Part shown: positions 6,376 to 36,320 of the stretch, piece after piece | How positions within the stretch are numbered: the first letter of the stretch is position 1 | Layout of the letters: each line of letters starts with the position of its first letter | Origin: Trifolium pratense | Taxonomy: Eukaryota > Streptophyta > Magnoliopsida > Fabales > Fabaceae | DNA: 64,000 nucleotides | Direction: 5' to 3' | NCBI RefSeq assembly: GCF_020283565.1 | Contig: NC_060060.1 | Coordinates: 1 to 64,000, forward strand | Program-made: the position numbers and the translations under genes | Notes under the pieces: model-generated | Told to the model about the DNA's origin: nothing | Seen by the model: the letters and a program-made list of their open reading frames with translations, nothing else | The model's database searches: none

Positions 6376-7359
6376 TTATTGAGTCCATATTGCCTCAATT
6401 GCATGACTCATGTCCAACTCATATTCATGCTCTGTGTCATCCTCTAGTGGTTCTTCCATAGTCAATTTCTTCCAGTGACTGTGAACTGAATTTAATGGTG
6501 TCGGTACACCGCTGGTTGTATACCCACCCAATTCACAAGTACAAGGCAACTCACATGTTGACCTAAGTTTGCAATCACAAAAGTTTTTATCTGTTCCAAC
6601 AATGCCAATTCTCTTCATCTCATAAGAAATTAGTGTCATAGCGGTTCTGGAGACAAAGTTTCTCAAATTTTGAAAAAATGGACTGCTGTGTGTCTTCCTT
6701 GCATAAGTCGCATTTGCTGTGTTCCAACATTTGCTTCAGTTTCTAATGTGCAGACTCAACTCTAAATATCAAATTGCAAACAACGGTCAATTAATTAAAC
6801 GCAAAAATAAAATAAAAATATAATTACAATTTTGAAAAAGACAAAATCATACCTATTAGTCGTTGTGTTTCCTAAATGCATCACTTGATTGGTCCATGCT
6901 GCAACAAATTGTTCTTTGTGAGGGGTCAACTAGGTGTTATTGACATAGTCAACAAACTTGCTTGAATTAACACATGCTTGCTGAAACGCATTCAACCGCT
7001 GCTAATACTCCACCTCATCTGGACTTTCAACAACATTTTTCCACAAATTTTTCACCTTTTGTCGCATATCCTTAGGTATATGCAGGGTGCATCTCGTATT
7101 CACATTTTTGATTATGTGCCACGTACAAAGCATATTAACAGTATGTGGAAATATAACTTTAATTGCATTCATCAAAGCAAACTCTCTGTCGGTCAAAATT
7201 AATTTAGGAAATATATCTTGCTTAGTAAGCAATTCCTTCAGCTTCCCTAACGCCCAATGATAATTGTTCGTCTTCTCAGCAAATGTCATGTTAGTTGACG
7301 TTATGCCAGTAATTTCAAGCAGTGGCTGTCTATATTTATTAGTTTTGTATGTGCAGTCC
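6376..7359 (-). pseudogene. MULE transposase, C-terminal half (split by LTR insertion)
   Basis: On the minus strand, from 7359 downwards, the reading begins DCTYKTNKYRQPLLEI, then gives ILTDREFALMNAI, LCTWHIIKN (MULE transposase core) and, after stops, IVGTDKNFCDCKLR and LPCTCELGGYTT. The last two correspond to the C-terminal SWIM-type zinc-finger region of MULE/FAR1-like proteins. Stop codons near 7000 and 6900 and frame breaks show it is dead. The N-terminal half lies at 21387-22027. The two parts are directly contiguous once the Tat element and one target-site copy are removed. The reading was therefore interrupted inside the conserved DCTYKTN motif. Confidence 0.88.
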
Positions 7360-8134
7360 TGTTGGATATAAATTTGGTATTTATCAATTAAATATAATTG
7401 GTGGGTCCAATATTTATTTGGAGGTGATATTGTTAAAATAAAACTTTCAAAGGTGGCGTCGAAAGCCAGCTAGGTCGAAGCCAAAAAGCGCTTCGAAAGA
7501 TATGGATAATACGTCCAATTTTGGTTCTGCCAGGAAGCTATCGAAAGCGCGAAATCGAACCGATGGAGAGTTGGGCCAAGCCCAAAGAAGGAACAACGAA
7601 CGGCCCAAAAGGCCTTGGCGCGCGCTGAAGGAATGAAAGATGAAAGTGGAGAACGTGGTCGACGTGGCAAATGGAGGAGCGTCCAGATGATCGAGAAACA
7701 GTTACCACTTAGTAGTAGTATTTATAGTAGTTTTTCATTCAGAACAGGGGTCACAAAATTTATACAAACACTCTCTCTAAAAATTCTAAGTACTCAGCGA
7801 TCGAACGAACGGAATTCGAAGGAGAAATGTATGTTTTGTGAACCATCTTTATTTGTAATTGTTTTCATTCAATGCAATTTGTTTTCCAGTAATTTTTTCC
7901 AAGTCTGAATCCAGATACTTGCTTGAGAAACTGCTACTTCGAGGCGATTCGAATTAGTTTCTCTTGTATGCTTTAAAATATTTTAATTCCTAAGTGTTTG
8001 TTTCCTTATTCAAACGAACATTCAAACAGTTTTCTTGAAGCGAATAAACACAAAATTGTCCTGAGATTTACTAGTTGATCTCGCGAGTTTAAATACTTAA
8101 ACTAGCGGTTGTTTACCAAATCCCAACGTAAACA
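7360..8134 (+). repeat. 5' LTR of the Tat element
   Basis: It begins TGTTGG and ends TAAACA (short TG...CA inverted ends). A TATA-like TATTTATAG near 7718 is a plausible retroelement promoter. Several GTCGAA/TTCGAA motifs (for example around 7450, 7492 and 7546) recur along the LTR and the internal region. Length and sequence match the 3' LTR except for one base. Confidence 0.95.
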
Positions 8135-8137
8135 AAT

Positions 8138-8155
8138 TGGCACGCCCAGTGGGAC
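8138..8155 (+). other. Primer-binding site of the Tat element
   Basis: TGGCACGCCCAGTGGGAC begins three bases after the 5' LTR and starts with TGG, the complement of a tRNA CCA end. The matching tRNA was not identified from memory, so the primer is left open. Confidence 0.7.
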
Positions 8156-8243
8156 TGGTTTTGTGTTTGTTAAAGTTGTGTTTATTTTTATATTGTGGAA
8201 TAAAAAACTTGTTACTTGCATATAACTCATGATAAGTTAGGTT

Positions 8244-11200
8244 ATGGTTAAAACTACTCAGAGATCTAATCCTAGTAAAACTCCAAGTTCTAGTGCGATG
8301 AGTAGTGAAGCAAGTTCGAGTGGTGGAGTCGATCCGCCTCCACAAAGTTTGGTAACATCTGAGTTGGTGAATGTTCCAATATTCTCCAGTCCAACCATTT
8401 CGACTGTGCATGATGTTATTCCAACTTTGCCAGTACCAACTATGGCAATTCCGTCCGTGACTGCTGGTTTTGGACGTTCGAAACCACCATCAGGTCAGGG
8501 CTTTATGTATGGGCCTCCCCCCACACTTGGCTTAGGAATGCCAAGTTTCGAACCTGATAGGTATACTTCGTCAAGGGTAACTCCCACACCCTTAACGACT
8601 GCATCTGTGTTGTCTTTGAGACAGCAAATGGATGAGAGCAACCACGAAATGGTTAATCTCTTAACACAACAAATGGGTACTGTGTTTAATCCATTAATTC
8701 AGAATACCAATGAGAGTTATCAAATGTTGGCATTTCAAATGAGTCGAATTGCAGATTTTTTTGGGACACCTCCACCACCTCCTAGAGTAAATCCCATTAC
8801 TCCACAAGTAATATTACCTGCAATGTCTTCGACCCCAGTGCAGCAGAGGCCAACCTATGTGGCTACTGAAACAGTTCCTAACCCAACACCTACGCCAGTT
8901 GTACAAGAGGAAACCTATTATCCTCACGAGGTTAATCAAATGCCTCAAGTAGTAAATCAAAACCCTCCTGTTATGAACCCAAATCCACAAGTGGTACATC
9001 AGAACCCCCCAGTGGTAATGGTTAGGAGGAACCAGGATCCTGACGAGGTAGTGCGAGAGGTGCAAAACAATAATTTGCTTGGCCAACACAATTTGGCTAA
9101 CATGGTCGAAACGATTTTGGCCCAAAACGGCCTAAACACGGGTTGTCGAAGGCCAAACTTTGTCTCTGCTTTCACTGAATATGTGCTGCAAACCGAGTTA
9201 CCAAGAGGTTGGAAGGTCCCAAAATACACTAAGTTTGCTGGGGACACTAATGAGTCAACCGTAGAACATATTGCCAGGTATCTAGCTGAGTCTGGGAATT
9301 TAGCGAATAATGAAAATTTGCGAATGAAGTATTTTCCTAATTCGCTTACCAAGAATGCATTTACTTGGTTTACAACTTTGCCTCCCAGTTCGATCAATAG
9401 TTGGGCCCAATTGGAAAGGATTTTCCATGAGCAATTTTATATGGGCCAAACCAAGATAAGTCTGAAAGAGTTAGCCAGTGTAAAAAGAAAAAACCAAGAG
9501 TCAATTGATGACTATCTAAATAGGTTTCGTTTGCTGAAATCCAGGTGCTTTACTCAAGTGCCTGAACACGAGCTAGTGGAAATGGCTGCTGGTGGGTTAG
9601 ATTATTCAATTCGAAAGAAATTGGATACCCAATACCTTCGAGACATGTCACAGCTGGCTGACAGAGTGAGACAAATCGAAAGGTTAAAAGCTGAAAAAGT
9701 TAGAAATTCTAAGTTTCAGAAAAAGAAAGAAATAGGTTTTGTTGATTCCTATGATAATGAAATTGATTATGAAATGAGTGATGAATACTTAGATTTTGAC
9801 GATAGTGATATTAATGTGGCTGAATTAAAGCTTGGGCCTCCTTACACTTGCAAATTGTTGAGGCCGTCGAATGGAAAAAATCCTATCGAACCAAAAAATG
9901 ATAAGTTTGTTACGAAGACTTATACTTTCGACATCACTAAATGTGATGAGATTTTTGATTTATTGGTGACTGACGGCCAAATTATTGTGCCAAAAGATAT
10001 GAAAATACCACCAATAGAACAAAGAAAGAAAAGAGGTTATTGTAAGTTTCATAATTATTTGGGACATAAAACTTATCAATGTGTTGTTTTCAGGGATTTG
10101 GTGCAAAAAGCGCTGAATGAAGGAAGGCTGAAGTATGCTGATAAGGCTAAGCCTCCAATGAAGGTAGATTCAGACCCTTTGCCACCTGCGGACGCTACCT
10201 ATGTCGAAGTCTATGACTGCAACATGGTCGAAGTGATAGATGCTACTGCTCCAATCAAGGCGGTGCCTGAAGAGGAGTATGAAAAGAGGGTACGTGAGGT
10301 GTACCCCAATGCTGAGGAAGAATTGGTGGACTTCCTAAATAGGTGCAAGCTGAAGAATGCTGAAGTGATGCTTTGCCCTAGATGTAGTGCTGTGTGCGAC
10401 AAAGAGGCTACTGCAGGCCTTCAAAGTGTTGTACCTTATGCTGAAAACAAGAGAAAATGGCCAAAATCTAGGCCAAATCAAAAAGCTTGGCCTTACAAAG
10501 GAGCCAACTGGGGAAAGCCTATTACCAAAGGCCTTTCGATCCAGCAAAGGCTAGGCCCCCAAAACACTTTCAAACCATCTGGGAGAGCACCTGTTAACCA
10601 ATGGGTGAGTGGACAGTACGTCACTTTCAATCGAAGGATGATGGAAAATGGAAGCTCTAGCAACGTTAACGTGAACATTGTAGCCGAACCCAAGGGTTCA
10701 AAAGTGGTAGCTGGGAAAGAAACAGTGAATGCCGCCACTGAAGTCAACAAATACTCTTATAGGAATAACTATAAGGGAAAAAATCCTATGACCCGCACTC
10801 AGTGGCGAAGGTTCCAGAGGAAACAAAAGTTGACAGCAAAAGAGGCTGGGGGCAAGGCTGTTGCAACCCAGAAGGTTGAAAAGGTTGAAATGGCCAAGAG
10901 GCCAGTAAAGGAGAGGCTTTCCATAATATTGGAAGAGCCAATAGCTGAAAATGCCCAAGGAGGGGCAGAAGATGAGGATGACATGGAGGATGATGATCTC
11001 CTGGATGAGGGGTCTGATTTTGATGTCATGGTCAATGTGGTGTCGATTCTGCCACTGGAATATGATATACCTACTGAAGTCAATGAACTGGAAGAGGACT
11101 TCGAAGCCCTTAATTTGGCTGATCATAAGCCAATGTGTTATTATGTTATGCAAAATGGTTGTGTTGAAGAGCAAAAAGCTGTCTTCGAAAAGCCAGATCT

Positions 11201-11855
11201 GGGAATGCAGAACCACTTGAAGGCTTTGTTCATTAGGGCAAAAGTCAATAATGTGGGAATCAATAAAGTCTTAGTGGATGGAGGAGCTGTGGTGAATATC
11301 ATGCCTCACTTCATGTTGAAGAAATTAGGTCTCTATGACACAGACCTTCATTCCCACAATGTGGTGTTGGCCAACTATGAAGGAAAAACTGGTCATTCCC
11401 TGGGGGCAGTGCAGTTGGAAGTTTGTGTTGGTAGTACAGTTCGAAAGACCTTGTTTATGGTCATAGCTGCCAAACCTAATTACAATCTGTTATTAGGTAG
11501 AGAATGGATACATGGTGTTGGAGCTGTTCCCTCAACCATGCACCAAAGATTAATCATCTGGAGAGAAGATGGTTTAGTCGAGAATGTAGAAGCAGATCAG
11601 AGTGCATATGTTTCAGAGACAGGCACTGTGACATTACAGAACTTCGACAAAAACCTGGCCTCGATTGCTCCTTGTGGTGAGCAAGATGCTGCCTTCGATC
11701 CAAATGAAGTGGTATCAAAAAATGTATACCACTCAGTTAAGTTGCATCCAACCCATGGCTTTTGTTGGGAAAGGGAAGACATAGAGAAACCCTTGTGTGA
11801 GGATGCATACCCACCAGTGTCTGGATGGGTCAACCATGATGAGTTTGATGATTGA
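8244..11855 (+). CDS. Gag-protease polyprotein of the Tat element (1,203 aa)
   Basis: Structural capsid protein fused to an aspartic protease. The N-terminal ~330 residues are low-complexity and proline/asparagine-rich. The retrotransposon gag domain follows at about 360-480 (AFTWFTTLPPSSI, FHEQFYMG). A zinc-knuckle-like CKFHNYLGHKTYQC near residue 600 is a C-H-H-C variant rather than CCHC. Near the C-terminus LVDGGAVVNIMP (Asp at residue 1012) is the protease active-site segment, with DGG in place of the usual DTG/DSG, followed by the flap and NLLLGREW. The frame stops at 11853-11855. Pol continues in the +1 frame, overlapping slightly. Start chosen: the first ATG after the PBS. Confidence 0.9.
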   Translation: MVKTTQRSNPSKTPSSSAMSSEASSSGGVDPPPQSLVTSELVNVPIFSSPTISTVHDVIPTLPVPTMAIPSVTAGFGRSKPPSGQGFMYGPPPTLGLGMPSFEPDRYTSSRVTPTPLTTASVLSLRQQMDESNHEMVNLLTQQMGTVFNPLIQNTNESYQMLAFQMSRIADFFGTPPPPPRVNPITPQVILPAMSSTPVQQRPTYVATETVPNPTPTPVVQEETYYPHEVNQMPQVVNQNPPVMNPNPQVVHQNPPVVMVRRNQDPDEVVREVQNNNLLGQHNLANMVETILAQNGLNTGCRRPNFVSAFTEYVLQTELPRGWKVPKYTKFAGDTNESTVEHIARYLAESGNLANNENLRMKYFPNSLTKNAFTWFTTLPPSSINSWAQLERIFHEQFYMGQTKISLKELASVKRKNQESIDDYLNRFRLLKSRCFTQVPEHELVEMAAGGLDYSIRKKLDTQYLRDMSQLADRVRQIERLKAEKVRNSKFQKKKEIGFVDSYDNEIDYEMSDEYLDFDDSDINVAELKLGPPYTCKLLRPSNGKNPIEPKNDKFVTKTYTFDITKCDEIFDLLVTDGQIIVPKDMKIPPIEQRKKRGYCKFHNYLGHKTYQCVVFRDLVQKALNEGRLKYADKAKPPMKVDSDPLPPADATYVEVYDCNMVEVIDATAPIKAVPEEEYEKRVREVYPNAEEELVDFLNRCKLKNAEVMLCPRCSAVCDKEATAGLQSVVPYAENKRKWPKSRPNQKAWPYKGANWGKPITKGLSIQQRLGPQNTFKPSGRAPVNQWVSGQYVTFNRRMMENGSSSNVNVNIVAEPKGSKVVAGKETVNAATEVNKYSYRNNYKGKNPMTRTQWRRFQRKQKLTAKEAGGKAVATQKVEKVEMAKRPVKERLSIILEEPIAENAQGGAEDEDDMEDDDLLDEGSDFDVMVNVVSILPLEYDIPTEVNELEEDFEALNLADHKPMCYYVMQNGCVEEQKAVFEKPDLGMQNHLKALFIRAKVNNVGINKVLVDGGAVVNIMPHFMLKKLGLYDTDLHSHNVVLANYEGKTGHSLGAVQLEVCVGSTVRKTLFMVIAAKPNYNLLLGREWIHGVGAVPSTMHQRLIIWREDGLVENVEADQSAYVSETGTVTLQNFDKNLASIAPCGEQDAAFDPNEVVSKNVYHSVKLHPTHGFCWEREDIEKPLCEDAYPPVSGWVNHDEFDD

Positions 11856-14800
11856 GTCCCCAGCATGGGATCGAATTACGGCTTACGCAGCCGAGAATAG
11901 AATCAAAATGGCTCTTGAGGCCATTAATGTTCAAGAAAATATGGCTGTCGAAGCTAATGATGTCTTAAGGGACAAACTGGCCTTGGAGGCTAGTGAAGTA
12001 AACGATGGAAAAAAGCAAAAGTTGGATTGCATCTATGATGATGAGCCTTTGGGTTTTGAGAGAGATCCACATAGTTCGATTCAGAGAATGCAAGCCCAAG
12101 ATCCTTTGCAGGAGGTTGATATTGGAGATGGCTCTGTTAAAAGGCCAACTTACATTAGTGCCAATATAGACCCAACCTTAAGAGAAAAAATGGTCGAGTT
12201 GCTTAAGAAATACAGAGACTGCTTTGCATGGGACTATAACGAAATGCCTGGGTTAAGCAGAAATCTTGTGGAGCATAGGCTACCCCTTCGACCAGATAAG
12301 AAACCTGTAAAGCAGCTTCCAAGGAGGTTTGCACCGGAAATCATGACAAAGATCAAAGCAGAAATTGAAAGGTTGCTTAAATGCAAGTTCATTCGAACAA
12401 CCAGGTATGTGGAATGGTTAGCTAACATTGTTCCTGTTATTAAGAAAAACGGATCACTTAGGGTTTGCATAGACTTTAGAGATTTGAATAATGCTACACC
12501 TAAGGATGAATATTCCATGCCTGTAGCCGAAATGTTAGTCGACTCAGCAGCAGGGCATGAATATTTGAGTATGTTAGATGGCTATTCAGGTTATAATCAA
12601 ATCTTTATTGACGAGGATGATGTGCCAAAAACCGCATTTCGTTGCCCTGGTGCTTTAGGCACCTATGAGTGGGTAGTGATGCCTTTCGGATTAAAAAATG
12701 CTGGAGCAACATACCAAAGAGCCATGAACTTAATTTTTCATGATTTTATCGAAATATTTATGCAGGTTTACATTGATGATATTGTGGTGAAATCCTCTTC
12801 CCAGGATGAACATATCGAACATCTTAAAAAATCGTTCGAAAGAATGAGAAAATGTGGATTAAAAATGAATCCACTGAAATGTGCTTTTTGTGTACATGCA
12901 GGAGATTTCCTTGGCTTTGTTGTGCATAAGAAGGGCATAGAAATTAATCAAAATAAGACAAAAGCTATCATGGAGACAGAACCTCCAGGAACAAAGAAAC
13001 AGCTTCAATCTTTGCTGGGAAAGGTCAATTTCTTGAGAAGGTTTATATCAAACTTAAGTGGCAGAGCTCACCCCTTTTCTCCACTGCTGAGGCTCAAGAA
13101 AGGTGATGTATTTGAATGGGGAACGGAACAACAAAAGGCATTTGATGATATCAAGGCATACTTGTCAAAGCCTCCAACTTTAATGCCTCCTATTCGAAAC
13201 AAAGCAATGAAGTTGTACATCGCAGCGTCAGATTCGACTATTGGAAGCATGCTCGCACAAGAGGATGAAAATGGCATAGAAAAGGCTATTTACTATCTAA
13301 GTAGAATCTTGAATGATGCTGAGACTAGATATAGTCCAATTGAAAAGCTTTGTCTATGTTTGTATTTCTCTTGTACCAAACTTAAGCAATATATCAAACC
13401 AGTTCATGTTTATGTTTATTCTCATTTTGACATCATTAAGCATATGTTATTAAAACCAATTTTGCATAGTCGAATTGGGAAATGGGCTTTAGCTTTAACT
13501 GAATATTCATTGACGTACCAACCCCTGAGGGCTGTAAAAGGTCAAGTAGTGGCTGACTTTCTTGTTGACCACTCGGTGGCTGAGATCCCAATAACATATG
13601 TAGAACATGAACCTTGGATGTTGTACTTTGATGGCTCGAAGCACAAACATGGTACAGGAATTGGAATCTTAATCATTTCTCCTTCAAAGATTCCAACAAA
13701 GTTTAAGTACAAGATTAATGGAACATGCTCCAATAATGAAGCCGAGTACGAGGCTTTAATTGTAGGTCTAAAAATTATTTTGGACTTGGGGGCAAAACAT
13801 GTTAAAATCAGAGGAGATTCTGAGTTAGTGATAAAACAATTGACAAAGGAATATAAATGCATTCAAGAACATTTGATGAAATACTTTGTCATTGCCTTCT
13901 CGCTACTAAAACGATTTGATTCATGTGACATTCAACACGTGCCTCGGATCGAAAACCAAGAAGCAAATGACTTAGCCCAAATTGCTTCTGGTTATAAGGT
14001 AACGGGGAAAAAATTAGATGAGATAGTTGAAGTTAAAGAAAAACTAATCTCATGTGAGGTAATACCCCATCAGCTGGGGGCAAATGAACTAAATGTCGAA
14101 AGGGAGTCCGAAAGGGCTGATGCACACTTTGATGAAGCAATGACTGAAGTCTTCGTGATTGACAATTTGGCTGACACGGATTGGAGACAACCCATTGTTA
14201 AATACATAGAAAATCCAACAGGTACAGCCGATAGGAAGGTTAAGTATAGAGCCTTGAATTACACAATCATGGGAAATGAACTATTTAAGAAGACTCCTGA
14301 AGGGGTTTTGTTGAAATGCCTAAATGAAAACGAAGCGTATGTAGCAATTTCAAACGCCCATAGTGGAGCCTGCGGTGCCCATCAAGCAGGCCACAAGATG
14401 AAGTGGCTTTTGTTTCGACAGGGTTTATATTGGCCTTCCATGCTTAAGGACTGCATAGAATATGCGAAAGGCTGTCAAGAGTGTCAAAAACACGCAGGGA
14501 TACAACACGTTCCTGCCAGTGAGTTGCATTCGATTATCAAACCTTGGCCTTTTAGAGGCTGGGCTCTAGATTTAATTGGTGAGATAAGGCCCGCGTCATC
14601 CAAGAACCAACGTTATATACTAGTTGGGATTGATTATTTTACCAAATGGATAGAGGCTGTTGCCCTAACAAACGTGGATCAGGAAACAGTGATCAATTTT
14701 ATCCAAGACCATATTATTTATAGGTTTGGGCTTCCTGAGACGATCACTACAGACCAAGGAACGGTGTTTGTTGGTCGAAAGATGCAAGATTTTGCTGAAC

Positions 14801-15450
14801 AATTGGGTTTTAAGCTAATGACTTCGACGCCTTACTATGCTCAAGCAAATGGCCAAGTTGAAGCAGCCAACAAGGTTATAATTAGTTTAATTAAAAAGCA
14901 CGTTGCCCAAAAGCCAAAGAATTGGCATAAGACCCTGGACCAAGTCCTATGGGCATGTAGGAATTCTCCTAAAGAGTCAACAGGTTCGACACCTTTTCGA
15001 CTAACATATGGTCACGATGTCGTGTTACCTGTTGAAATAATGATGCAGTCGATTCGAGTACAAAGGCAATGGGAACTACCTCCTGATCACTATGAGAACA
15101 TAATGTTAGATGAATTAACAGACGTGGATGAGGAAAGGTTGCAGGCGTTAGATGCTTTGATTCGACAAAAAGAACGAATTGCTAGAGCATATAACAAAAG
15201 GGTTAAATCCAAACTCTTTGACGTAGGAGACTTAGTTTGGAAAGTCATCCTCCCCATGGACAGACGAGATCGAGTCTTTGGAAAATGGTCACCCAATTGG
15301 GAAGGACCATTTAAGATTTCTCAAGTTTTGTCAAATGGAGCTTACGAGATTGAAGAGTTAACTCCTGAGAAACGTTCAGTCAACATGAATGGCAAATATT
15401 TAAAGAAATACAAGCCAATGTTGCAAGAAATAACCATGAAAAATGAATAA
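11803..15450 (+). CDS. Pol polyprotein of the Tat element: RT, two RNase H domains, integrase
   Basis: Reverse transcriptase carries the catalytic YIDD at 12769-12780 and upstream FRDLNNATPKDEY. The RNase H next to RT (from ~13210) has lost most acidic residues (LYIAASDSTIGSML). A second, archaeal-type RNase H follows, with Asp in MLYFDGSK, Glu in NNEAEYEALI, Asp in RGDSELVI and Asp in EANDLAQ. Integrase has an H-C zinc finger (HSGACGAHQAGH...CQECQ), the DDE triad (WALDLIGE, TTDQGTVF, NGQVEAANK) and a C-terminal GPFKI region. No ATG initiates it convincingly; 11803 is only the first in-frame ATG. Expression probably needs a +1 shift or splicing from gag near 11853. It is intact over ~1,215 codons. 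Confidence 0.92.
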   Translation: MHTHQCLDGSTMMSLMIESPAWDRITAYAAENRIKMALEAINVQENMAVEANDVLRDKLALEASEVNDGKKQKLDCIYDDEPLGFERDPHSSIQRMQAQDPLQEVDIGDGSVKRPTYISANIDPTLREKMVELLKKYRDCFAWDYNEMPGLSRNLVEHRLPLRPDKKPVKQLPRRFAPEIMTKIKAEIERLLKCKFIRTTRYVEWLANIVPVIKKNGSLRVCIDFRDLNNATPKDEYSMPVAEMLVDSAAGHEYLSMLDGYSGYNQIFIDEDDVPKTAFRCPGALGTYEWVVMPFGLKNAGATYQRAMNLIFHDFIEIFMQVYIDDIVVKSSSQDEHIEHLKKSFERMRKCGLKMNPLKCAFCVHAGDFLGFVVHKKGIEINQNKTKAIMETEPPGTKKQLQSLLGKVNFLRRFISNLSGRAHPFSPLLRLKKGDVFEWGTEQQKAFDDIKAYLSKPPTLMPPIRNKAMKLYIAASDSTIGSMLAQEDENGIEKAIYYLSRILNDAETRYSPIEKLCLCLYFSCTKLKQYIKPVHVYVYSHFDIIKHMLLKPILHSRIGKWALALTEYSLTYQPLRAVKGQVVADFLVDHSVAEIPITYVEHEPWMLYFDGSKHKHGTGIGILIISPSKIPTKFKYKINGTCSNNEAEYEALIVGLKIILDLGAKHVKIRGDSELVIKQLTKEYKCIQEHLMKYFVIAFSLLKRFDSCDIQHVPRIENQEANDLAQIASGYKVTGKKLDEIVEVKEKLISCEVIPHQLGANELNVERESERADAHFDEAMTEVFVIDNLADTDWRQPIVKYIENPTGTADRKVKYRALNYTIMGNELFKKTPEGVLLKCLNENEAYVAISNAHSGACGAHQAGHKMKWLLFRQGLYWPSMLKDCIEYAKGCQECQKHAGIQHVPASELHSIIKPWPFRGWALDLIGEIRPASSKNQRYILVGIDYFTKWIEAVALTNVDQETVINFIQDHIIYRFGLPETITTDQGTVFVGRKMQDFAEQLGFKLMTSTPYYAQANGQVEAANKVIISLIKKHVAQKPKNWHKTLDQVLWACRNSPKESTGSTPFRLTYGHDVVLPVEIMMQSIRVQRQWELPPDHYENIMLDELTDVDEERLQALDALIRQKERIARAYNKRVKSKLFDVGDLVWKVILPMDRRDRVFGKWSPNWEGPFKISQVLSNGAYEIEELTPEKRSVNMNGKYLKKYKPMLQEITMKNE

Positions 15451-15589
15451 CGCAAGAATAAAATTTGCGAAATGGTAAAAGGAAATGCCAATAATCAAGT
15501 TTTATTTCATATAAAATCAACAATACAACCAATCATTCAAGAATGTTCAAGAAAATACAAGAAATGGTTGAATGTTGAAAGATAAACAC

Positions 15590-15940
15590 TTAAGGTTTAC
15601 CCTGAACCCGAGTTCCCTCATCCTTTGAATCAGAATTGGAAAGTTCTGAGATCTGAGAGTCTTCATCCTCAGAAGAAGGAGTTGGAGTTCCTGGGTATTC
15701 TTCATCAGGCTCTAGGGTACTGAGGAACTTGAGGTAGTCTTCATCTTCGTCATCTGAACTAGAGCTTGAGGAGTCAGAAGAGAGAATGATGGTTTCTACT
15801 ACATTAGCTGGTGCCGGTCGAGGGCGAAGGATTCTAGCGCGTGGAGGTTTGGAAGCTGGAATCTTGATTCGTCCCTTTCTAAGAGGACGCAGCATGTTTG
15901 AGCTTGAGGTAGAAGAAGGAGGATTTGTCTTGTTATCCAT
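15590..15940 (-). CDS. Small antisense ORF in the Tat element (116 aa), SUMO-interaction-like motif
   Basis: Unrecognised protein of 116 residues, antisense to gag-pol. The first ~45 residues are basic and proline-rich (LRKGRIKIP, RARILRPRP). The middle has a hydrophobic core, ETIILSSDSSSSSSDDEDED, running into a serine/acidic tract, the pattern of a SUMO-interacting motif. The remainder is acidic, with TPTPSSEDEDSQ. A TATA-like TTTATAAAG sits about 70 bp before the ATG on the same strand (16009-16018). It lies directly downstream of the larger antisense gene. Function is unknown. It could be a short accessory protein or a degraded exon. The open frame and its own TATA box make a real gene plausible. 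Confidence 0.55.
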   Translation of the reverse strand: MDNKTNPPSSTSSSNMLRPLRKGRIKIPASKPPRARILRPRPAPANVVETIILSSDSSSSSSDDEDEDYLKFLSTLEPDEEYPGTPTPSSEDEDSQISELSNSDSKDEGTRVQGKP

Positions 15941-16391
15941 TCTTTGTGGAGAGGTATTGATGCGTTATTTGTGCAAAATGATGAACAAAAACTTGCAAAG
16001 CGTGGGTCTTTATAAAAGGATTAAGGCGCGTTAATGGCTAGGTAGTTACAACTAACCATGGTCAGTTTGCATAGGGAAATGCCAAAGCATTAATGCCCAA
16101 AACCGTGTAGTTAATCATGTTGACTGCTTTGGAAACATGTTCATTCCATTCCTTGCAAAATACTATTAATGAGGCTTGGGATAATGACCCAAAAGAAGGA
16201 AAGCAAGCAACAATAAAGGAATAAAATACTCAGCCAATACATGAACATGCACCATGAAAAGGCCAAGAAGGGCATACATTTAAAAAAGCATGTACAAAAT
16301 TGTTCGATAGTTGCTAGTGTTAAAAGATCTACAGTTATGACATCCAAAAGAGAATAACAAAAATTTAAGACTAAAAGGAAAATTTATAAGG
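15941..16391 (-). promoter_or_regulatory. Spacer between the two antisense ORFs, with TATA box at 16009-16018
   Basis: No ORF is supported. On the minus strand CTTTTATAAAG (about 16009-16019) is a good TATA box for the 15590-15940 ORF. The sequence is close to palindromic and also reads as TATA on the plus strand. The remainder may hold the 3' UTR of the upstream antisense gene. Confidence 0.5.
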
Positions 16392-19300
16392 TCAAGATTG
16401 TTGCTGGGATGTCGAAGGAGGCTGTCGATTGGCCGCTTGAAATTGGTAATACTGAGTTCGAATGGACGCCAGTTTACGTTGTAGCATTTCTTTATCACTA
16501 GCAAGGTGCTCAACTCGCTTTTGGACAGCTAGACCATTACTGTAGTGCTGGATACCTTCACGTGCTAGCTCATCAAGCTTAACTTTTTGTGCTTCGATAG
16601 CTACTGCAGCTAGCTTTTCCATCTTAGCCTCTTCCTGTCGAACCTTTTCCTTTAGCGCTTCGATTTCAGACTGCCATTGAGCAATATTGTTCTCACAAGC
16701 CACAAGTTGCTCAAGGGCTTCATCAGAGGCAGTCTTGATAGTTGTGACCTCTGCATTGCAACTATTAGCTTGCTCGAAATGTTGTTGCTGGGTGGCAAGC
16801 AGAGATGTCAAAAGGTCGCTAGTCCTGGTTAGGAGTTGAGATTGACTAACGAATTGTTCTAGAAAGGTTTCAGCCTGAGTCACTAGAAGGAACATTGCTT
16901 CGTCAGTCTTTGGGTTCTGCAGCTTGCGGAAAAGAGCTTTGATGTTGTAATATATAGAAGAGTCACGCTCAAGCAGGCCCAACATATCCCCATTAAGAAT
17001 TTCTCGCCTAAACCTGATTTCATGCTCAAACTGTTCTTGCTCAAGTACATCTCCGTTACCTTCTGTGTCCTCAAAAGTGGAGCTAGAGGTGCCATGGCTT
17101 GATAAAAGCTTGCTAAGTGCGTCTACTGGAGTTAAATCTTTTAACTCTTTAGCAAGTTCAGCTGGCAGGACAACAGTGGGAAATGGCTTTGACACGGAAG
17201 TTCCCTCTTCACCGAGTGAGTCACCAATATAGGAGTTCCCATCTTCAGAGTCGAAAGCGCCAGCACTGGGTGAACTAGATTCATGGTTTGACCCACTTGG
17301 TTGTGGTTGATTGGTAGTGGAGTGCTCACCATCAACTGTTGGCCTTTGTTCAGTATTAGCAATGGGGTCAGCTTGAAAGTTGGTTGGAGGATCATTATTG
17401 GCTAATACTGGGGCAGGATGTGTCGAAAGGTTTGGTTGTGGTAGGCTTCGATCGAGTTGGTCTTCTTCATTGTTAGGCTTAAGATTGTCATCTTCGAAAG
17501 CGCGGTGAGGCGGGCTAGGAGCCTTGGGCGGTGATGAAGTTTCAGTAAGAATGGCCGTTTCGAGAGGCTGAGGAGATGAGATTTTTTCTGCAACATCTTC
17601 AGGAGGCGCATTGCTTGGCCCTTCGACCACCCCCTCAGCCGCTTTGCTAAGAGCAGGCTCATCCTGAGGAATAACTTGAGCAGAGTTTTGTGGCTGAAAC
17701 AAACAAAACCATGAAAGAATGAGTAACACAGTCAAAAGCTGAAGAAATAACAAGAAGTAAGAATGGCTTACTTGGGTTTGAGGGGTAGCAGAAGCTTCAG
17801 GTTGTGAAGTTGTTTCTTTTGCAGTAGCAGAAGCCTCGACAACAGTAGCTGCAGCAGGAGATTTTTTCTGCTTCTTTTTCTTCTTTTTCTTCCTCTCCGA
17901 TTGTTCCAAAGGAGGGTCTTCAGGTGATGCCAGAGTATCAGGTTGTGCCTCAATCTCAGAGGACTTGCGCTCAGGAGTACTTTCTTGGGTGGGTTGGTGT
18001 TCTTTCTTCTTCTTCTTCTTTTTCTTTTTCTCATCAGTAATGGGTTCAGCACTAGGAAAAAGATCTTGAGTAGTAGCAGCGGTAGTGTGCTCAGGGATAG
18101 TCGAGAGAACAGGAGTATCCTGCAGGCCACAGTTCAGTAAGTTCGCATTTAAGCCAAGGGAAATAGAAATCGTTGGATAAATGGATACCTCATCTGGAGC
18201 ACTCGAACAAGTGGCCGGAACAGGTTTTTGCTTCTTCGAAACAGAAGGAGTTTCAGTTGAATGAGGCCTCTTGCGTGAAGCAATCTAGGAAGGGCATATC
18301 AAAGTTAACATAGAAATCTTACAGAAGTGTGAAAAGCCACAAGAAGGGAAAAGCCTACCTGTAGTTCAACCTTAGATGGTGGGGGAAGAGGCTTGCTAGA
18401 ATCGCTGGAACCTGCCTTCGACTTACTCCCTACATCGAAGAGGTGTGCATAAGAGAAAAGCACGCAAGGTAAAAACGATGCAAGTAAAAGTAAAACTAAA
18501 AGAATACCTCTGGCGTTCAATTTCGACTTAATCTTGTTCAAAATAGATGAGTCGAACCCATTAGAGATAGCAGTGAGCAAGGCAGTCTTGTCGACCAGGC
18601 GTCCTTCATAGTGTCGAGACCACCAGGTAAAAAATTCCCTAGTGCAGGCATGTGAGGGAGCGAAGTCGAATGGGGTAAGCTCATAAGAAGGCTGATTGAA
18701 GTGGTTCAAGAATGAATGGAACTGTGGTTCTGTCATGCCATGTTTGCCCAAACAAACCTCCCTCTCTTCCAAATATATGCTCTTAGGGAGTATTTGAGTT
18801 AAGCCAAATTGGCGAGACACCAGGTTTGGGAAGTAACCAACTAACCCAAAATCTCCAGAGGTCAAGCCAATTCGACAGGACAAGACTGTAGGCATCAAGT
18901 AAGCAGTCCAAATGTTGTTGGTTACCGTCTCGAATTTCGGTGGAGAAGGAAATCTGTGAGTAAACCAAGGAGGACCAAGTGGCCTATCCACAAAGGGAGC
19001 AAAGCTAGGCTTGAACTTCTTCAGGCTGAGGAAAGTATTAAAATACTGTTGGAAAGCCACATCATAACCAAGGCCTCTTTCCCTAGGCACCATTCTCGCC
19101 AACCTCGTGCCTTCGACTCGACGTGTTCTTGATTCCTCATAGTATGGCTCAGGCAAGAAAAGGTCAAGCTCAGCATGAAAAGTGGCAGTTAGCCATAATT
19201 GCAGTAACCAGAAGGGGCCAGCACCTAAAAAGGTGGATCCATCACCTGTTCTTTTAAGATGTTCACAAGCATCCCTCATGGATTCATAAAGACATCCAAG

Positions 19301-20125
19301 AATAAGCCGAGCGAAGTTGAATTGCTGGCACTCATGTAATTGAATAGCCATAGGGATGAATTTCTTGGCTACTTGGAGAGATTGAGTGCAGAAGACATAC
19401 TGCGATAGCCATAAGGTTAAGAAAGCGATGTGTTCTTCGTCACTTACTTCATCACTAGTCTTTCGATTCTCCACGATGTATTTAGAGTAAGACTTGTTTC
19501 GAAAGTCGAATTTGATGGTGTCGGAAGCTTTGCAAGGATCATAAGTGTCGCCAAGAGGCGATAAGCCAGTAATGGCAGCAACATCCAGCAGTGTAGGAGT
19601 CATCATGCCACATTCGAAGTGGAAAGTGTTGGTGGAAGACTCAAAGAAGTGCAAAGCAGCAACAATCATTTCCTGCTGGTATTTAAGGCCGGTCCGAGAA
19701 AGTTGAATAAGGTCATAAATGCCACAAGCTTGCCAAATGTCAGCTTTGTCACGTTGTACCCTGTCTAACCAGCCAAGGTATTGATCATTCAAAGAAGGAG
19801 CTGATCGAAACACTCTGTTAGGCGCCTTGATATAGCTAAAATTATAGGGTTCACTAATGAAAACCCTAGGAACACAAGGCTTATAAACAGGAAAAATAGA
19901 CAAAACCTTGGAATTCCGACTTTTATCACTTGGTTTGGGTCCCCCAAATGCATGCACGAGGTTATCAACAGAATAAGGAAAGATTAATTGATTTTCCCAA
20001 AACTTTTGTAAATCCAGACGCAACGATGGTTCTGGAACCACATCCGCGTCGTAAGAGGAAAGAGTGGTGGCGGTCCACTTACCGGCGTAAGGAAGGAATT
20101 TTCCAACACCCGAGCCTGACGCCAT
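16392..20125 (-). CDS. Antisense five-exon gene in the Tat element: plant-mobile-domain, lysine-rich and coiled-coil protein
   Basis: Minus-strand exons: 20125-18508, 18429-18359, 18284-18189, 18119-17772 and 17693-16392. The four introns (78, 74, 69 and 78 bp) all have GT-AG ends, and the joined frame is open for 1,144 residues. Exon 1 (~539 aa) resembles the aminotransferase-like plant mobile domain: GMMTPTLLDVAAITGLSPLG near residue 175 and FTWWSRHYEGRL near 510. Exons 3-4 add lysine clusters (SKKQKP, EKKKKKKKKE, ERKKKKKKKQKK) typical of nuclear-localisation signals. Exon 5 is Pro/Ser/Glu-rich, then predicted coiled coil (about residues 950-1130) with a Q/S-rich end. A TATA box lies ~245 bp upstream. 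Tat elements are known to carry antisense extra ORFs. The exon structure here is my inference from splice signals. Confidence 0.8.
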
Positions 20126-20611
20126 TGATGAAGAGATAAAGATGGCGTGAAAGAATGGTGATTAGGGTTAAATTTGGGAATCACAGGTTGTTTGCAACGG
20201 TTGAGGAAAATCCGAGTGAAAAGAAAGTTGATGACTGGGTGATAAGTAGAAAAGTGAAGACAAGAAGTCTTTTGGAAACAAGAATTCAAGAAATAATCGC
20301 GGAAGATGAAGAAGAAGATGAACAGTTGACAGAGAAAAATTGGAGAAAACGCAATAAAGGGAGGATATGGCTATTTATAGAGGCACGCGGTCTGTTGAAA
20401 ATAACAAATTTTTCAACTCCCTTGTTGACAAATGTCCAAACCCCTTGACAGGTGGAAAGAAAAACAAGTTTTGGAGCCAATCCAAAGTTTGAAAGGCAGC
20501 CTAAACGATAGGAGAGATAAATGGAAAAGAAAGATATCCATTAATACTTTCAAAAACGCCACTTCCTCTTGCGATAAACATAGTCGAAAATGGCATTTTT
20601 GGGGGGCAATT
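20126..20611 (-). promoter_or_regulatory. Promoter and leader of the antisense gene; polypurine tract at its edge
   Basis: On the minus strand CTATAAATAG (20371-20380) is a near-perfect plant TATA box. It would place the start of transcription ~215 bp before the ATG at 20125. No ORF in this stretch is convincing. At 20597-20611 the plus strand reads TTTTGGGGGGCAATT immediately before the 3' LTR, the polypurine tract that would prime plus-strand DNA synthesis. Confidence 0.65.
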
Positions 20612-21386
20612 TGTTGGATATAAATTTGGTATTTATCAATTAAATATAATTGGTGGGTCCAATATTTATTTGGAGGTGATATTGTTAAAATAAAACTTTC
20701 AAAGGTGGCGTCGAAAGCCAGCTAGGTCGAAGCCAAAAAGCGCTTCGAAAGATATGGATAATACGTCCAATTTTGGTTCTGCCAGGAAGCTATCGAAAGC
20801 GCGAAATCGAACCGATAGAGAGTTGGGCCAAGCCCAAAGAAGGAACAACGAACGGCCCAAAAGGCCTTGGCGCGCGCTGAAGGAATGAAAGATGAAAGTG
20901 GAGAACGTGGTCGACGTGGCAAATGGAGGAGCGTCCAGATGATCGAGAAACAGTTACCACTTAGTAGTAGTATTTATAGTAGTTTTTCATTCAGAACAGG
21001 GGTCACAAAATTTATACAAACACTCTCTCTAAAAATTCTAAGTACTCAGCGATCGAACGAACGGAATTCGAAGGAGAAATGTATGTTTTGTGAACCATCT
21101 TTATTTGTAATTGTTTTCATTCAATGCAATTTGTTTTCCAGTAATTTTTTCCAAGTCTGAATCCAGATACTTGCTTGAGAAACTGCTACTTCGAGGCGAT
21201 TCGAATTAGTTTCTCTTGTATGCTTTAAAATATTTTAATTCCTAAGTGTTTGTTTCCTTATTCAAACGAACATTCAAACAGTTTTCTTGAAGCGAATAAA
21301 CACAAAATTGTCCTGAGATTTACTAGTTGATCTCGCGAGTTTAAATACTTAAACTAGCGGTTGTTTACCAAATCCCAACGTAAACA
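20612..21386 (+). repeat. 3' LTR of the Tat element
   Basis: 775 bp, equal in length to the 5' LTR and differing by eye at one base (A at 20818). It begins TGTTGG after the polypurine tract, ends TAAACA, and is followed by the target duplication AGTCC. Confidence 0.95.
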
Positions 21387-22027
21387 AGTCCAAAACCAAA
21401 ACAATGGGAAACAAGTTCCTATTCCAACTGACATATTTTGCATCATCTAACCACTGCAGCAAGTGTTGCAACCCTGTTCTGGAGCCTCTTTCCTCATTTT
21501 GCATCATGTGTCTTTTCTATATACATGCTTGGCATCAACAACAGACTCTGGATTTTGATATTTCAAATCTAAAACGATGTGCCTTGGTGCTACATGACGC
21601 TTTGTCAAATCTTCAACACGTTTGTTTTCATCAGCGGTTAAACGTGCCTTGCGAGGATGACCATGATATTGGTCAGGTAGCCCTGGTTGTGAACTCCATG
21701 AATAACCTGAACATTCCATCCTGAACCATCTGTTGAAGGTGCGACTCTAATTTTGAATGGACAGTAACACTTTTTCGATGCAGTTGTCTTGGAACTTTCT
21801 GAAGAGTCATACTTTCCACCTTTGTCACAACCCAAAATTAACTTGTCATTTCTTCCTCTTATTTCGTTCTTTTTATCCGACCGAGTAATGATAATACTGA
21901 CTTTGTTGGCATCTCCAACATCTCGAACCCATGTGAGAACAACATCTGGTGTAGCAAATTTTTGATCCGTTGTAAAAGCATATGTAGTATCTACCAATAT
22001 TTGACTTGTAACGCCGAGATAAGCCAT
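21387..22027 (-). pseudogene. MULE transposase, N-terminal half with FAR1-type DNA-binding domain
   Basis: From the ATG at 22027 on the minus strand the frame encodes a FAR1-type DNA-binding domain: VVLTWVRDVG, then IRGRNDKLILGCDKGGKY, KKCYCPFKIRV and GSGWNVQVIHGVHNQ. A single-base frameshift near 21680 moves the reading to DQYHGHPRKARLTADE and APRHIVLDLK. Further stops and a deletion follow before FPIVLVLD at the insertion junction. Removing the Tat element restores VLVLDCTYKTNKYR across 21387/7359. It was therefore a MULE (Mutator-like) transposase gene, already broken independently of the insertion. Confidence 0.88.
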
Positions 22028-27420: not shown

Positions 27421-28276
27421 AAATCCCCTTATATAAAGGCAAGTTTTGGCCCATGGAACACAACTCAATCACTTTTCACTTTCACTCCGCCTTGATCACA
27501 TACTGACTTGACCAATATTGGATGGCTAACGTAGTTATTGGTACTTTCTCCATCGTGATCCACCGCACCGGAATAGTATTTCCATCGTAACTGTTTCAAT
27601 TCTCAACGTCGGAGTCATCTATTTCTCTGTCGAGAAGAACACTACGCAAGAAATTGAAATTACGAACACTTTAAAAATATATTATTTATGTTAATTATAA
27701 AATATTACTCCATGCGGTCTTTTTTAAAAGATACAGTTTACGTTCCAAGATTCATTGAATAAATAATGTATCTGGTCTATAATATTGACCAGATTCATTA
27801 TTTATTTAATGAATTTAGAAAAGTAAATTGTTGATCTCTTATAAAAAGGATAAAAGAAAGTATAATTTAAAAAGGAAAGCATAATTTTTTTCTTGTCAAT
27901 AAAATCATAATTTTGTAAATAAATTAATTTGTTAAAGTAACAATTATTTTTAATTTATTTTATTCTGATAATCTTTTTTTATTTATTTATTATATTATTT
28001 TTTTTACTGTAATTATATTACATATGTATGGAAATTGATTTATTTATTTCTTTATAATAGTTTTTTTTTTGAAATTTCTTTATAATAGTTAAATATAGTG
28101 TTAAACCAAAAGTGGTTTCCGAACAATTACTCTGAAATTTTGATGAAAACAATATATAAGAAAACAATTGGGGAACCTAAAGTATGTTCAAGTACTCAAG
28201 ATCATAAAGAAATATGCTACTACTAAACACACTTTGAAAAAAGACTAATAATTAGTGTAATGATCGAAATTGGTAT
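27421..28276. other. Intergenic, AT-rich; contains a degraded MITE
   Basis: A short GC-richer segment at 27500-27650 reads MANVVIGTFSIVIHRTGIV from an ATG at 27522 before a stop; it matches nothing I recognise. The remainder is AT-rich and non-coding and includes a probable MITE at 27708-27860. The last five bases, GGTAT (28272-28276), are the target duplication of the Athila element. Confidence 0.5.
27708..27860. mobile_element. Degraded Stowaway-like MITE
   Basis: A 153-bp segment with termini CTCC(A)TGCGGTC / GGATAAAAGAAAG, related to the family in the HSP70 copy A intron, flanked by TA. An internal palindrome, ATTCATTGAATAAATAATG and its complement, is visible. Confidence 0.5.
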
Positions 28277-29454
28277 TGATGACGTTAGTCATTACATGGA
28301 AATAAAGACCATTTTCAAGTGTTTTTAGAGGTTTTTGACCTAAATCATGAAGAACAAGACATTGATTTGAAGCTACATGCGAAGAAAGATAGCAAATGAA
28401 AATTGGTGGATTATATAGCATTTTTACGCCTGGGGCGGAATTCTTTGCGCCTGGGGCGGAAATTTCACTGAAGAAGCTGGTTTGCTCACTGTTTTGCCGT
28501 TTCAGGCGAAATTCTTGTGCCTGAAACGTAACTTCTTACGCCTGGGGCGGAAATTCTGTGCCTCAGGCGGAAAACGTTACTTTTGATCATTTTTATAAAA
28601 GGGAAACATCAGATCTGGATCATTATCGAATTTTTACGCAAAAGAACAGCTATTGGAGCGATTTTGGAGGATCAAGAGCGATCAAGCAAGGATTCCAGTG
28701 TGGAAACACATCAAGATTCTTCTTGTAATCATGCTTTCTTTCATTTTATTTGATGTAATTTCTGAATTTGCAATGTCTAGCTAAATTCTCATGATTAGTC
28801 CTTAGGTGATTCTAATTACTTTTGATCTTGAATTATGTGATTGTCATATGATATGATTAATGAATTACGAAGTTAGTTTCTATTGATTGTTCTTTGTGCT
28901 TAATGCTTTGTATGAATTCACGACTTATATGATGATTGCAATGATTTGTTTTACTATGACGATAGGAATAAATCATCGATCTAGGAACGATTGATCAATT
29001 AATTTTCACTTAAGAAATTTTGGATTGTTAATTGAGATTAAAAGATTAAAGTTTTTCTTCCTCACATGATCATAGGTCTTACTAAGAAATTAGGGATTGA
29101 TGATCATGAGAGAGGATTATGTTACCAAGACATTGGGCATAATCAATTGTGTTTTAATCAAATCATGAAACTAATTCGACTAATTCGTTATCATACATGA
29201 AATTACCAAGAGAAATAGTAATTAGATGACCCAAAAAGGACCAATCGCTTTTCTTACATCAATCTAAACACCAAAGTAATTCCAAAGTTTAAAAATTTGA
29301 ACTTGAAACCAAACAAGAACCCCCTTTTTACAATTTATGTCAATTTACATGAGTATGTCTTCAATTTACAGTTGATTTAGAACAATCCCTGCGGAGAGAA
29401 CGATTTTATTATACTACTTGACGGCTATTTAGTACACTTGCTAAATTTCTATCA
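28277..29454 (+). repeat. 5' LTR of the Athila element
   Basis: It runs from TGATGACG to TCTATCA. A TATA box, TATAAAA, is at 28594-28600. Upstream of it, six copies of a CGCCTGGGGCGGAAA-type motif occur between 28430 and 28575. Differences from the 3' LTR were seen near 28350, 28797 and 28921. Confidence 0.95.
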
Positions 29455-29460
29455 AGTTTT

Positions 29461-29478
29461 TGGCGCCGTTGCCGGGGA
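29461..29478 (+). other. Primer-binding site complementary to tRNA-Asp(GTC)
   Basis: TGGCGCCGTTGCCGGGGA lies six bases after the LTR. It is complementary to the 18 nt at the 3' end of plant tRNA-Asp, including CCA. This primer is usual in Athila-type elements. Confidence 0.92.
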
Positions 29479-29665
29479 TTGTTGATTAAATCAACAAGGC
29501 AATTGAGTCATACTTTTAAATTTTATTGTTTTATTGATTAAGTTTTTGTTTATTTTAATTATAAATATATATAAAAAAAAAAAATATATATATAATTTCT
29601 GAATTTTATTTTCATTTTCATTCTTGTGTAGTGCAGTTGCTTCTTAAGGTATTTTCTGGTTGTTT

Positions 29666-35236: not shown

Positions 35237-35392
35237 GGTTTCGAGACCGTCAAGCTAATGACGCTAAAAGTAGCGCTGCTTGGGAGGCAACCCAAGGTTT
35301 TATTTAACCGTAATAGTTTTTCTTTTGATTTTTTGTGTTTTGCAGGTCAAATTGAAAAAAAGAGGAGTGTGAAAAGTGTACAACCAGGAAAT

Positions 35393-35833
35393 TACGTTTG
35401 GGGCGGAAAAAATGGAGCCTGGGGCGTAAAAAAATTCTGGAAAATGTTGGTTGCTCTCTGTGTGCCGTTTGGGGCGTAAAAGTGCCGTTTGGGGCGGAAA
35501 AGTTTGAAGAAAAAAAACATTGCTCTCTGTTTTGCCGTTTGGGGCGGAAATGTTGGTGTTTGGGGCGTAAAAAAATTCTGGAAAATGTTGGTTGCTCTCT
35601 GTGTGCCGTTTGGGGCGGAAAAGTTTGAAGAAAAAAAACATTGCTCTCTGTTTTGCCGTTTGGGGCGGAAATGTTGGTGTTTGGGGCGTAAAAAAAATAC
35701 TGAAGAAAGTGGCTGTCACTTATTTTTCCGTTTGGGGCGGAAGGGTTTACGCCTAGGGCGTAAAAATTCTGAAGAATTTTGGGTGCTCTCTGTTTTGCCG
35801 TTTGGGGCGGAAATTTTCGTTTTAGGCGTAAGA
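35393..35833 (+). repeat. Array of ~13 CCGTTTGGGGCGGAAA-type motifs, with a 121-bp tandem duplication
   Basis: The non-coding region after pol holds about thirteen variants of (T/C)TGGGGCG(G/T)AAA between 35395 and 35830. A 121-bp unit is duplicated in tandem (starting 35484 and 35605). The same motif occurs six times in each LTR upstream of the TATA box. It is not translated in the sense frame. Confidence 0.9.
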
Positions 35834-35841
35834 AATTCATG

Positions 35842-36320
35842 AAACCCTCATTCTTTCTCTCAAACTTCATCTTCTTCCACAAACCTTATCCTTTCTCACA
35901 AAACTTCATCTCCTTCCTCACACAAATCCTCCATTAACAACCATCCAAACCTTCAAACCCAACACAAATCCTTCATTAAAACAACAACCACAACAAATTC
36001 ACCCATTCTCTTTCACCAATTTCATCCTCAAATCTCAAACCCCTCTTGAACCTAAACCTCCCAAATCCTTCAAAACCCCATTAAAACAACAACCTCTCTC
36101 ACACCCATAACACCAAACCCACGAAAATTTCTTCCATCCAACTCTATTCTTCAAAACCCATCATCAACAACAACCAATTCTTCAAATTTTTCCAAAACCT
36201 AAAATCAAAAAAACCCTTCAAAACCCTACACGAAAATTCATCCAAAACCACCATAAATCTTCATCTTTTCCATCAATCACCCATAACCCATCACCCTTCT
36301 CAATCTTTACCTTTCTCACC
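35842..36320 (+). promoter_or_regulatory. G-depleted leader before ORF3 of the Athila element
   Basis: These 479 bases contain only three G residues (36048, 36123 and 36232) and are built of A, C and T. No ATG occurs before the ORF3 start at 36321. Such a C/A/U-rich, nearly unstructured sequence looks like a 5' untranslated leader of a separate mRNA for ORF3. No TATA box was found immediately upstream. Confidence 0.7.

Follow-up and report, generated by a model that had tools for sequence, protein, structure and literature searches.

The window analysed here covers the first 64 kb of contig C2 in the Trifolium pratense (red clover) assembly (413.6 Mb). Its positions 7360-21386 form a single complete long terminal repeat (LTR) element, with two LTRs, a target-site duplication (TSD) and open reading frames (ORFs) for gag-protease and pol. 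The minus strand of this element carries a spliced gene, here called antisense gene 1, whose product contains a plant mobile domain (PMD). The gene is under purifying selection, the predicted model of its protein matches the DNA-binding region of VANC21, and the element is rich in the motif TCGAA.

The spliced antisense gene

Antisense gene 1 has 1,144 codons, from an ATG at 20125 to a TGA at 16392, and is stop-free when its exons are joined. Its parts are as follows, from promoter to stop:

20371..20380, minus strand: TATA box CTATAAATAG of gene 1, between its ATG and the 3′ LTR, inside the element
18508..20125, minus strand: exon 1, 539 codons plus 1 base
18617..19723, minus strand: plant mobile domain, residues 135-503
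18430..18507, minus strand: intron 1, 78 bp, GT-AG
18359..18429, minus strand: exon 2
18285..18358, minus strand: intron 2, 74 bp, GT-AG
18189..18284, minus strand: exon 3
18120..18188, minus strand: intron 3, 69 bp, GT-AG
17772..18119, minus strand: exon 4, holding both lysine runs
18003..18029, minus strand: lysine run, residues 626-634
17871..17894, minus strand: lysine/arginine run, residues 671-678
17694..17771, minus strand: intron 4, 78 bp, GT-AG
16392..17693, minus strand: exon 5 to the stop; a low-confidence, probably disordered linker, then a helical domain and long coiled coil
16425..16901, minus strand: long coiled-coil helix, residues 976-1134, with a predicted local distance difference test score (pLDDT) of about 89-99 in the block

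An earlier note on this DNA had proposed five minus-strand exons, four GT-AG introns and one frame of 1,144 codons, and exactly this structure could be rebuilt from the window. The longest minus-strand stop-free stretch spans 630 codons; in 500 first-order Markov resamples the mean was 113 and the maximum 262. The TATA box CTATAAATAG of the predicted promoter lies about 245 bp ahead of the ATG and is identical in all 30 rows (the window and 29 sister copies). All 18 rows compared keep the context of the ATG, TCATCAATGGC. A scan of 20100-20640 for bacterial-type promoters, a type of scan not suited to plants, gave no match. Introns 1 and 4 have 78 bp each and contain no in-frame stop, so that retained-intron isoforms with hydrophobic inserts are possible; the GenBank models P0123 and P0121 read through intron 1 and intron 4, respectively. 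Intron 1 (18430-18507) measures 77 or 79 bp in 5 of the 29 copies. The introns may outlast retrotransposition because they would be introns only in the antisense transcript, and not in the sense genomic RNA that is reverse-transcribed.

Exon 1 matches the Pfam PMD profile PF10536 over its full length (model positions 1-347 of 347; E = 1.6e-38; 133.2 bits against a cut-off of 34.9), which bears out the N-terminal PMD of the earlier note. The same note had counted three lysine clusters. Two are found as lysine/arginine runs of 9 (626-634) and 8 residues (671-678), but the third is only a weaker basic stretch near residues 560-580. The long coiled coil it had described is predicted as one helix (residues 976-1134). 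In the model of the exon 5 half (mean pLDDT 66.4; predicted template modelling score 0.33), the last 245 residues are mostly confident, and the predicted C-terminal coiled coil probably serves self-association.

Selection on the frame and its relatives

The earlier note had taken the intact frame in one element of near-zero age as a sign of selection. This does not follow: new copies of an active element are intact in any case, and a single young copy proves nothing on this point. Comparison between copies, however, does reveal constraint. The sister copies were ranked by likeness to an intact exon 1, with 40 of 130 candidates scored. This ranking inflates the proportion of intact copies, but we do not expect the same bias in the substitution ratio. 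All four GT-AG introns are kept in 28 of the 29 copies, in which exon lengths shift only by 9 or 6 bp and intron lengths by 1 or 3 bp; the exon frames, whose conservation the note had set as a test, are thus preserved in multiples of three. Exons 1-4 are stop-free in 26 of the 29. Of the 19 copies that span the entire gene, 15 have an open frame as far as the usual stop; in two the frame ends early, and two more have a divergent tail.

The ratio of nonsynonymous to synonymous change (omega, or dN/dS), which the note had proposed to compare between copies, is low. In a tree of the window and 28 copies (L010 left out), with an intron-derived mutation spectrum, omega for exon 1 is 0.109 (314 synonymous and 80 nonsynonymous changes), with 0.082 on internal and 0.128 on terminal branches. 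In the same tree, exons 2-4 give 0.354. Comparison by pairs (153, not independent of one another) gives a dN/dS of 0.072 in exon 1 and 0.25 in exon 5; L040 and L057, whose sequence is unaligned in the tail, were left out of this comparison and of the ATG-context and gene 2 counts. The close copy L042 opposes the trend on few changes (3 synonymous, 7 nonsynonymous). The spliced antisense frame is under purifying selection.

A partial T. pratense model, P0001, shares all four exon joins. Long PMD proteins (978-1,238 aa) from other Trifolium species, soybean, Lotus and pea align lengthwise with the gene 1 protein, and several of them have 17-115 member sequences. In a comparison of 21 proteins picked from the listed database matches, identity outside T. 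pratense is 39-66% in the PMD, 10-31% in the linker and 18-40% in the C-terminal helical domain. A 26-row tree joins the selected legume relatives and the window PMD in one fully supported group, outside which fall eight host-like PMD loci and two further repeat PMDs (one from a MULE); "host-like" is our own label, and MAIN and MAIL1 are outside this tree. With regard to the published PMD-A clade, the window PMD is a candidate member, as it groups in this tree with long, mostly multi-copy legume PMDs. The lengthwise alignment and the grouping in the tree show that the arrangement of PMD, basic stretch, linker and coiled coil is an old design and no local accident.

Two further PMD observations were made. 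P0056 is a PMD protein from Orobanche minor, a parasitic plant; it is 48% identical over 67% of the query and is the only non-legume among the listed matches with an organism name (120 of the 142 listed); a transfer of its gene from a legume host is possible. At C3:46450673-46703246 (including L001-L003 and L005-L008), at least 17 PMD places lie within about 250 kb; their open frames measure 362-815 aa, and four contain internal stops. These probably represent a local expansion of host PMD genes.

Fold, motif and proposed function

The PMD is still called a domain of unknown function (PMC9289625, PMC8616336), even though, in one screen of plant LTR retrotransposons, no other atypical domain was as frequent (PMC9289625). 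Comparison of the predicted gene 1 model with known structures may provide a clue, since model residues 78-519 match the DNA-binding region of VANC21 (PDB 9lnj) and share its three-dimensional fold. This relative surfaced through fold comparison only: a PDB search with the gene 1 protein gave no match at E <= 1, and one with its profile gave four weak, unrelated matches at E <= 10. None of the 26 listed matches in a viral structure library reached E <= 0.001, nor did any of the 33 listed PDB matches of the exon 5 half. DUF1985, the sequence domain of the VANC family, is absent among the 16 families matched by 36 relatives, but a MULE PMD has a weak match to it (E = 0.024). In the open-access literature (with few subscription journals and bioRxiv preprints covered) we found neither a link between PMD and VANC nor a paper on the 9lnj structure. 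The fold match implies that the gene 1 protein may bind DNA, and it yields a concrete hypothesis for the PMD, namely sequence-specific DNA binding, together with a candidate motif.

This motif, TCGAA, was first spotted by eye in the LTR, after which all 5- to 7-mers in the element were counted. TCGAA tops the 5-mers with 101 occurrences on both strands against 20.8 expected, about five-fold; GTCGAA occurs 36 times (3.6 expected), and TCGA is contained in all twelve 7-mers listed. Its density is high in both LTRs as well as in gag, pol and gene 1. Each LTR has 9 sites (12 matches), 5 of them within nt 100-200, about 160-260 bp upstream of a TATA-like site in the LTR; in the 3′ LTR this cluster lies here:

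20711..20811, strand not applicable: cluster of 5 TCGAA/TTCGA sites (6 matches on both strands), LTR nt 100-200

In all three coding regions TCGAA exceeds the mean of synonymous-codon shuffles, and TCGA is the sole NCGN context clearly in excess there, the others being near or below expectation. TCGAA occurs at 0.86 per kb in the rest of the window, and 20 times in the 32.6 kb of the eight host-like PMD loci. Three further PMD loci were analysed as 6-kb pieces, L060 and L061 having been chosen before their motifs were seen. L059, a relative of the window's own family, has 27 TCGAA (12.3 expected); L060 has 26 TACCGAA (0.9 expected) and L061 has 19 ACCGGTA (0.3 expected), in both cases clustered beside the PMD frame, in L061 with a MULE transposase nearby.

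The clusters in the latter two loci resemble VANC target arrays. The palindromic CpG motif GTGTACCGGTACAC adjoins the MULE PMD frame at L061 921-1214, and ATTTCGGTA adjoins the PMD frame of a repeated family at L060 421-821, 3804-4008 and 5618-5822.

We propose that the gene encodes a VANC-like, self-targeted anti-silencing or transcription factor that acts on its own family, a reading for which we see about equal chances of being right or wrong. Gene 1 would be transcribed from a TATA promoter of its own, which lies within the element next to the 3′ LTR, with a second antisense gene beside it, and the basic, nuclear-localisation-like stretches would bring the protein into the nucleus. There the PMD would bind short motifs in copies of the family, the best candidate being [GT]TCGA[AC], and the bound protein would keep these copies accessible or demethylated, as VANC does. 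The earlier note had suggested a nuclear regulator that possibly counters silencing or acts in integration-site choice or gene control. The features of a nuclear regulator and the selection on the frame are present, and the fold match lends weight to the idea of countering silencing, while nothing found here points to integration-site choice; anti-silencing itself stays hypothetical. If the proposal is true, LTR retrotransposons, and not MULEs alone, may bear self-targeted anti-silencing genes, which would give such elements a possible way around silencing by their host. More tentatively, and with somewhat more doubt than belief, PMD and VANC/DUF1985 may form one fold family of self-targeting DNA-binding proteins encoded by transposable elements (TEs). 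Tat/Ogre retrotransposons would then express such a protein from a spliced antisense gene, and it would recognise a family-specific CpG motif (here TCGAA) and remove or block silencing; PMD gypsy elements, PMD MULEs and VANDALs would share an anti-silencing strategy, and MAIN and MAIL1 would be domesticated or opposing members.

Several observations weigh against the anti-silencing proposal. The VANC21 match is structural only and made with a predicted model (8-10% identity; Foldseek TM scores 0.33/0.46), helical folds can reach high scores by chance, and the window protein has no DUF1985 match at E <= 1. The count of 101 TCGAA includes 17 palindromic TTCGAA twice. The best of 2,000 synonymous shuffles equals the TCGAA count in pol and in gene 1, and exon 1 alone has 13 TCGAA against 14 in its best shuffle. 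When 6-mers are scored against a maximum-order Markov model, none of the eight top-ranked ones contains TCGA; the excess therefore resides in the 5-base core. There is no excess in the gene 1 promoter (1 match) or in 15451-16391 (1 match). TCGA CpGs are kept at a rate of 0.946 (32 sites) versus 0.877 for other CpGs (79 sites; p = 0.057), and the site-by-site test gives p = 0.2 for noncoding and p = 0.064 for coding DNA. A repeated short motif also occurs in another element of this window, which is Athila-like and has no PMD among the ORFs listed for it: CGCCCC is found three times per LTR and, at 35400-35809, 11 times in a tandem array. The TCGAA sites are dispersed and mostly in coding DNA, unlike the noncoding tandem-repeat targets described for VANC21 (PMC5735166, PMC10398659). 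Furthermore, the host proteins MAIN and MAIL1 are reported to promote silencing, which is the opposite direction (PMC5418596).

Two related candidates were rejected. CpG conservation pooled over four regions (875 of 927 TCGA kept; 1851 of 2283 other NCGN) is not significant site by site, and a search of the element for VANDAL-like tandem-repeat targets gave only 12 short, low-scoring rows.

The TCGAA excess may also have nothing to do with the protein, being due to CpG decay that spares TCGA or to a site for another factor such as an LTR transcription factor. We regard this as a serious contender that falls slightly short of an even chance. TCGA is centred on a CpG while other coding NCGN contexts are near or below expectation, the LTR cluster sits 160-260 bp upstream of a TATA-like site, two internal noncoding stretches are without excess, and the conservation test is not significant. 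Neither the rest of the window nor the eight host-like loci, however, have a TCGA excess, and the PMD repeats L060 and L061 carry different, strongly repeated CpG motifs. TCGAA as the binding motif stays hypothetical.

Other functions for the protein seem less probable. It could be an accessory regulator of transcription or retrotransposition that binds DNA in the nucleus and adjusts the activation, repression, copy number or nuclear import of its own element, much like HBZ of HTLV-1 or GENE23 of maize Grande, but leaves silencing marks untouched. The basic runs, the coiled coil and the DNA binding implied by the fold would suit this role, and the anatomy is that of published antisense accessory genes, with their own promoter and nuclear product (PMC7264820); but the idea is less specific, because the only solved relative by fold is described as an anti-silencing factor (PMC5735166), and we consider it rather unlikely. 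A mimic of host PMD proteins, which competes with MAIN and MAIL1 for PP7L or other partners and thereby blocks their silencing pathway without sequence-specific DNA binding, is more improbable still. MAIN and MAIL1 do interact with PP7L (PMC7156037), and counter-silencing by TE-encoded PMDs has been proposed (PMC5418596, PMC8616336), yet long, fully supported branches part the window PMD from the eight host-like loci (in the tree without MAIN and MAIL1), and the TCGAA enrichment would be left unexplained. Lastly, the antisense transcript might act only as RNA, through double-stranded RNA or interference with gag-pol RNA, with the frame incidental, as has been discussed for antisense ORFs (PMC7264820). 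An exon 1 omega of about 0.1 and frame-keeping indels in 28 of 29 copies indicate a protein; they largely refute this view and make it extremely improbable.

Known systems, the host element and a second antisense gene

Steinbauerova is said to have described PMD-bearing Ogre/Tat Ty3-gypsy retrotransposons in 2011. PMDs were found in 57% of Ogre elements (Neumann 2019, PMC6317226), and such elements share with ours the extra RNase H ahead of integrase and the PMD extra ORF (PMC6317226; PMD-A clades in PMC5418596). The background of the earlier note, that PMDs and antisense extra ORFs occur in Tat/Ogre elements, is therefore in print (PMC6317226, PMC5418596, PMC7264820), as are own promoters and nuclear products of antisense genes (PMC7264820) and, on phylogenetic grounds, the suggestion of anti-silencing by TE PMDs (PMC5418596, PMC8616336). 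That literature counts extra ORFs as frames of at least 250 codons (PMC6317226), whereas here there are five exons, conserved introns, a TATA box, a tail and measured selection. The ORFs of maize Grande (GENE23) and Retand (TRP28) are likewise antisense between pol and the 3′ LTR (PMC7264820, PMC11963269). GENE23 is reported to have its own promoter and a nuclear product (PMC7264820), to which we liken those predicted for gene 1, and HBZ of HTLV-1 is reported to come from a spliced antisense transcript (PMC1459196), as we propose for gene 1. In these accounts, the antisense accessory genes carry other annotated domains, and gene 1 differs by four introns within its coding frame.

The PMD belongs to a host silencing pathway. 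MAIN and MAIL1 share this domain and affect TE silencing and gene expression, with a "DOWN" promoter motif enriched among genes down-regulated in the mutants (PMC5418596, PMC7156037); they are host genes that promote silencing, and the parts of these papers drawn on here mention no lysine-rich or coiled-coil tail. VANC proteins of VANDAL MULEs (PMC5735166, PMC10398659) share the predicted fold of the DNA-binding region, are encoded by TEs and belong to elements rich in a short motif. They belong to DNA transposons, however, whereas gene 1 is antisense in an LTR retrotransposon. No spliced antisense PMD gene was found in the literature covered, where the searches were not directed at motifs of PMD elements. 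New here are the selection on the spliced gene, the VANC21 fold match, the TCGAA excess and a second antisense mini-gene with a TATA box.

The host element has the following parts:

7360..8134, plus strand: 5′ LTR, 775 bp, TG...CA, 1 mismatch to the 3′ LTR
20612..21386, plus strand: 3′ LTR, 775 bp
7355..7359 (left) and 21387-21391 (right), strand not applicable: target-site duplication AGTCC
8244..11855, plus strand: gag-protease ORF, Retrotrans_gag above its cut-off, gag-asp_proteas below its cut-off
11797..15450, plus strand: pol ORF with reverse transcriptase, RNase H, an extra RNase H-like domain (RVT_3), then integrase, in Tat-type order

With a single difference in 775 bp between the LTRs, the near-zero age given by the earlier note holds; at a substitution rate of 1.3e-8 per site per year the element is about 50,000 years old. 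It has 775-bp LTRs with TG..CA ends and the TSD AGTCC, as elements of the Tat lineage do. In pol, Pfam places RT_RNaseH at residues 468-570, RVT_3 at 611-728 and rve at 918-1014, and the order of RNase H, second RNase H-like domain and integrase is the Tat mark in angiosperms (PMC6317226). This makes it a Tat-lineage element, and its PMD points to the Ogre type (PMC6317226). Ogre has an intron between gag-protease and pol (PMC6317226); here the two overlap instead, in different frames, at 11785-11855 on the plus strand. Elsewhere in the window, at 28272-39454, lies an LTR element that we label Athila-like, with a Transposase_32 ORF at 36321-37793.

The second antisense gene lies behind gene 1:

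16009..16014, minus strand: TATAAA of gene 2, core kept in 18 of 18 rows
15590..15940, minus strand: antisense gene 2, 116 aa, with a basic N-half and an acidic/serine C-half
15501..15506, minus strand: AATAAA behind gene 2, kept in 15 of 18 rows, shortened in two and missing in one

Its protein has no match at E <= 1 among the 172 collected proteins and none above the cut-off in Pfam, the only database searched. A stretch of it, VVETIILSSDSSSSSSDDEDED, resembles a phospho-SUMO-interacting motif. A pattern that we wrote for SUMO-interacting-like motifs matches 25 of the 58 proteins with 900 aa or more, versus 9.8% of shuffles; because the match falls in the N-terminal arm in 9 of these 25, the result was set aside. 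The frame of gene 2 is open in 18 of 20 rows (the window and 19 copies, with L040 and L057 unaligned there), and the context of its ATG is kept in 18 of 18. The acidic/serine C-half differs only slightly among the copies, and gene 2 has a dN/dS of 0.37 on few changes.

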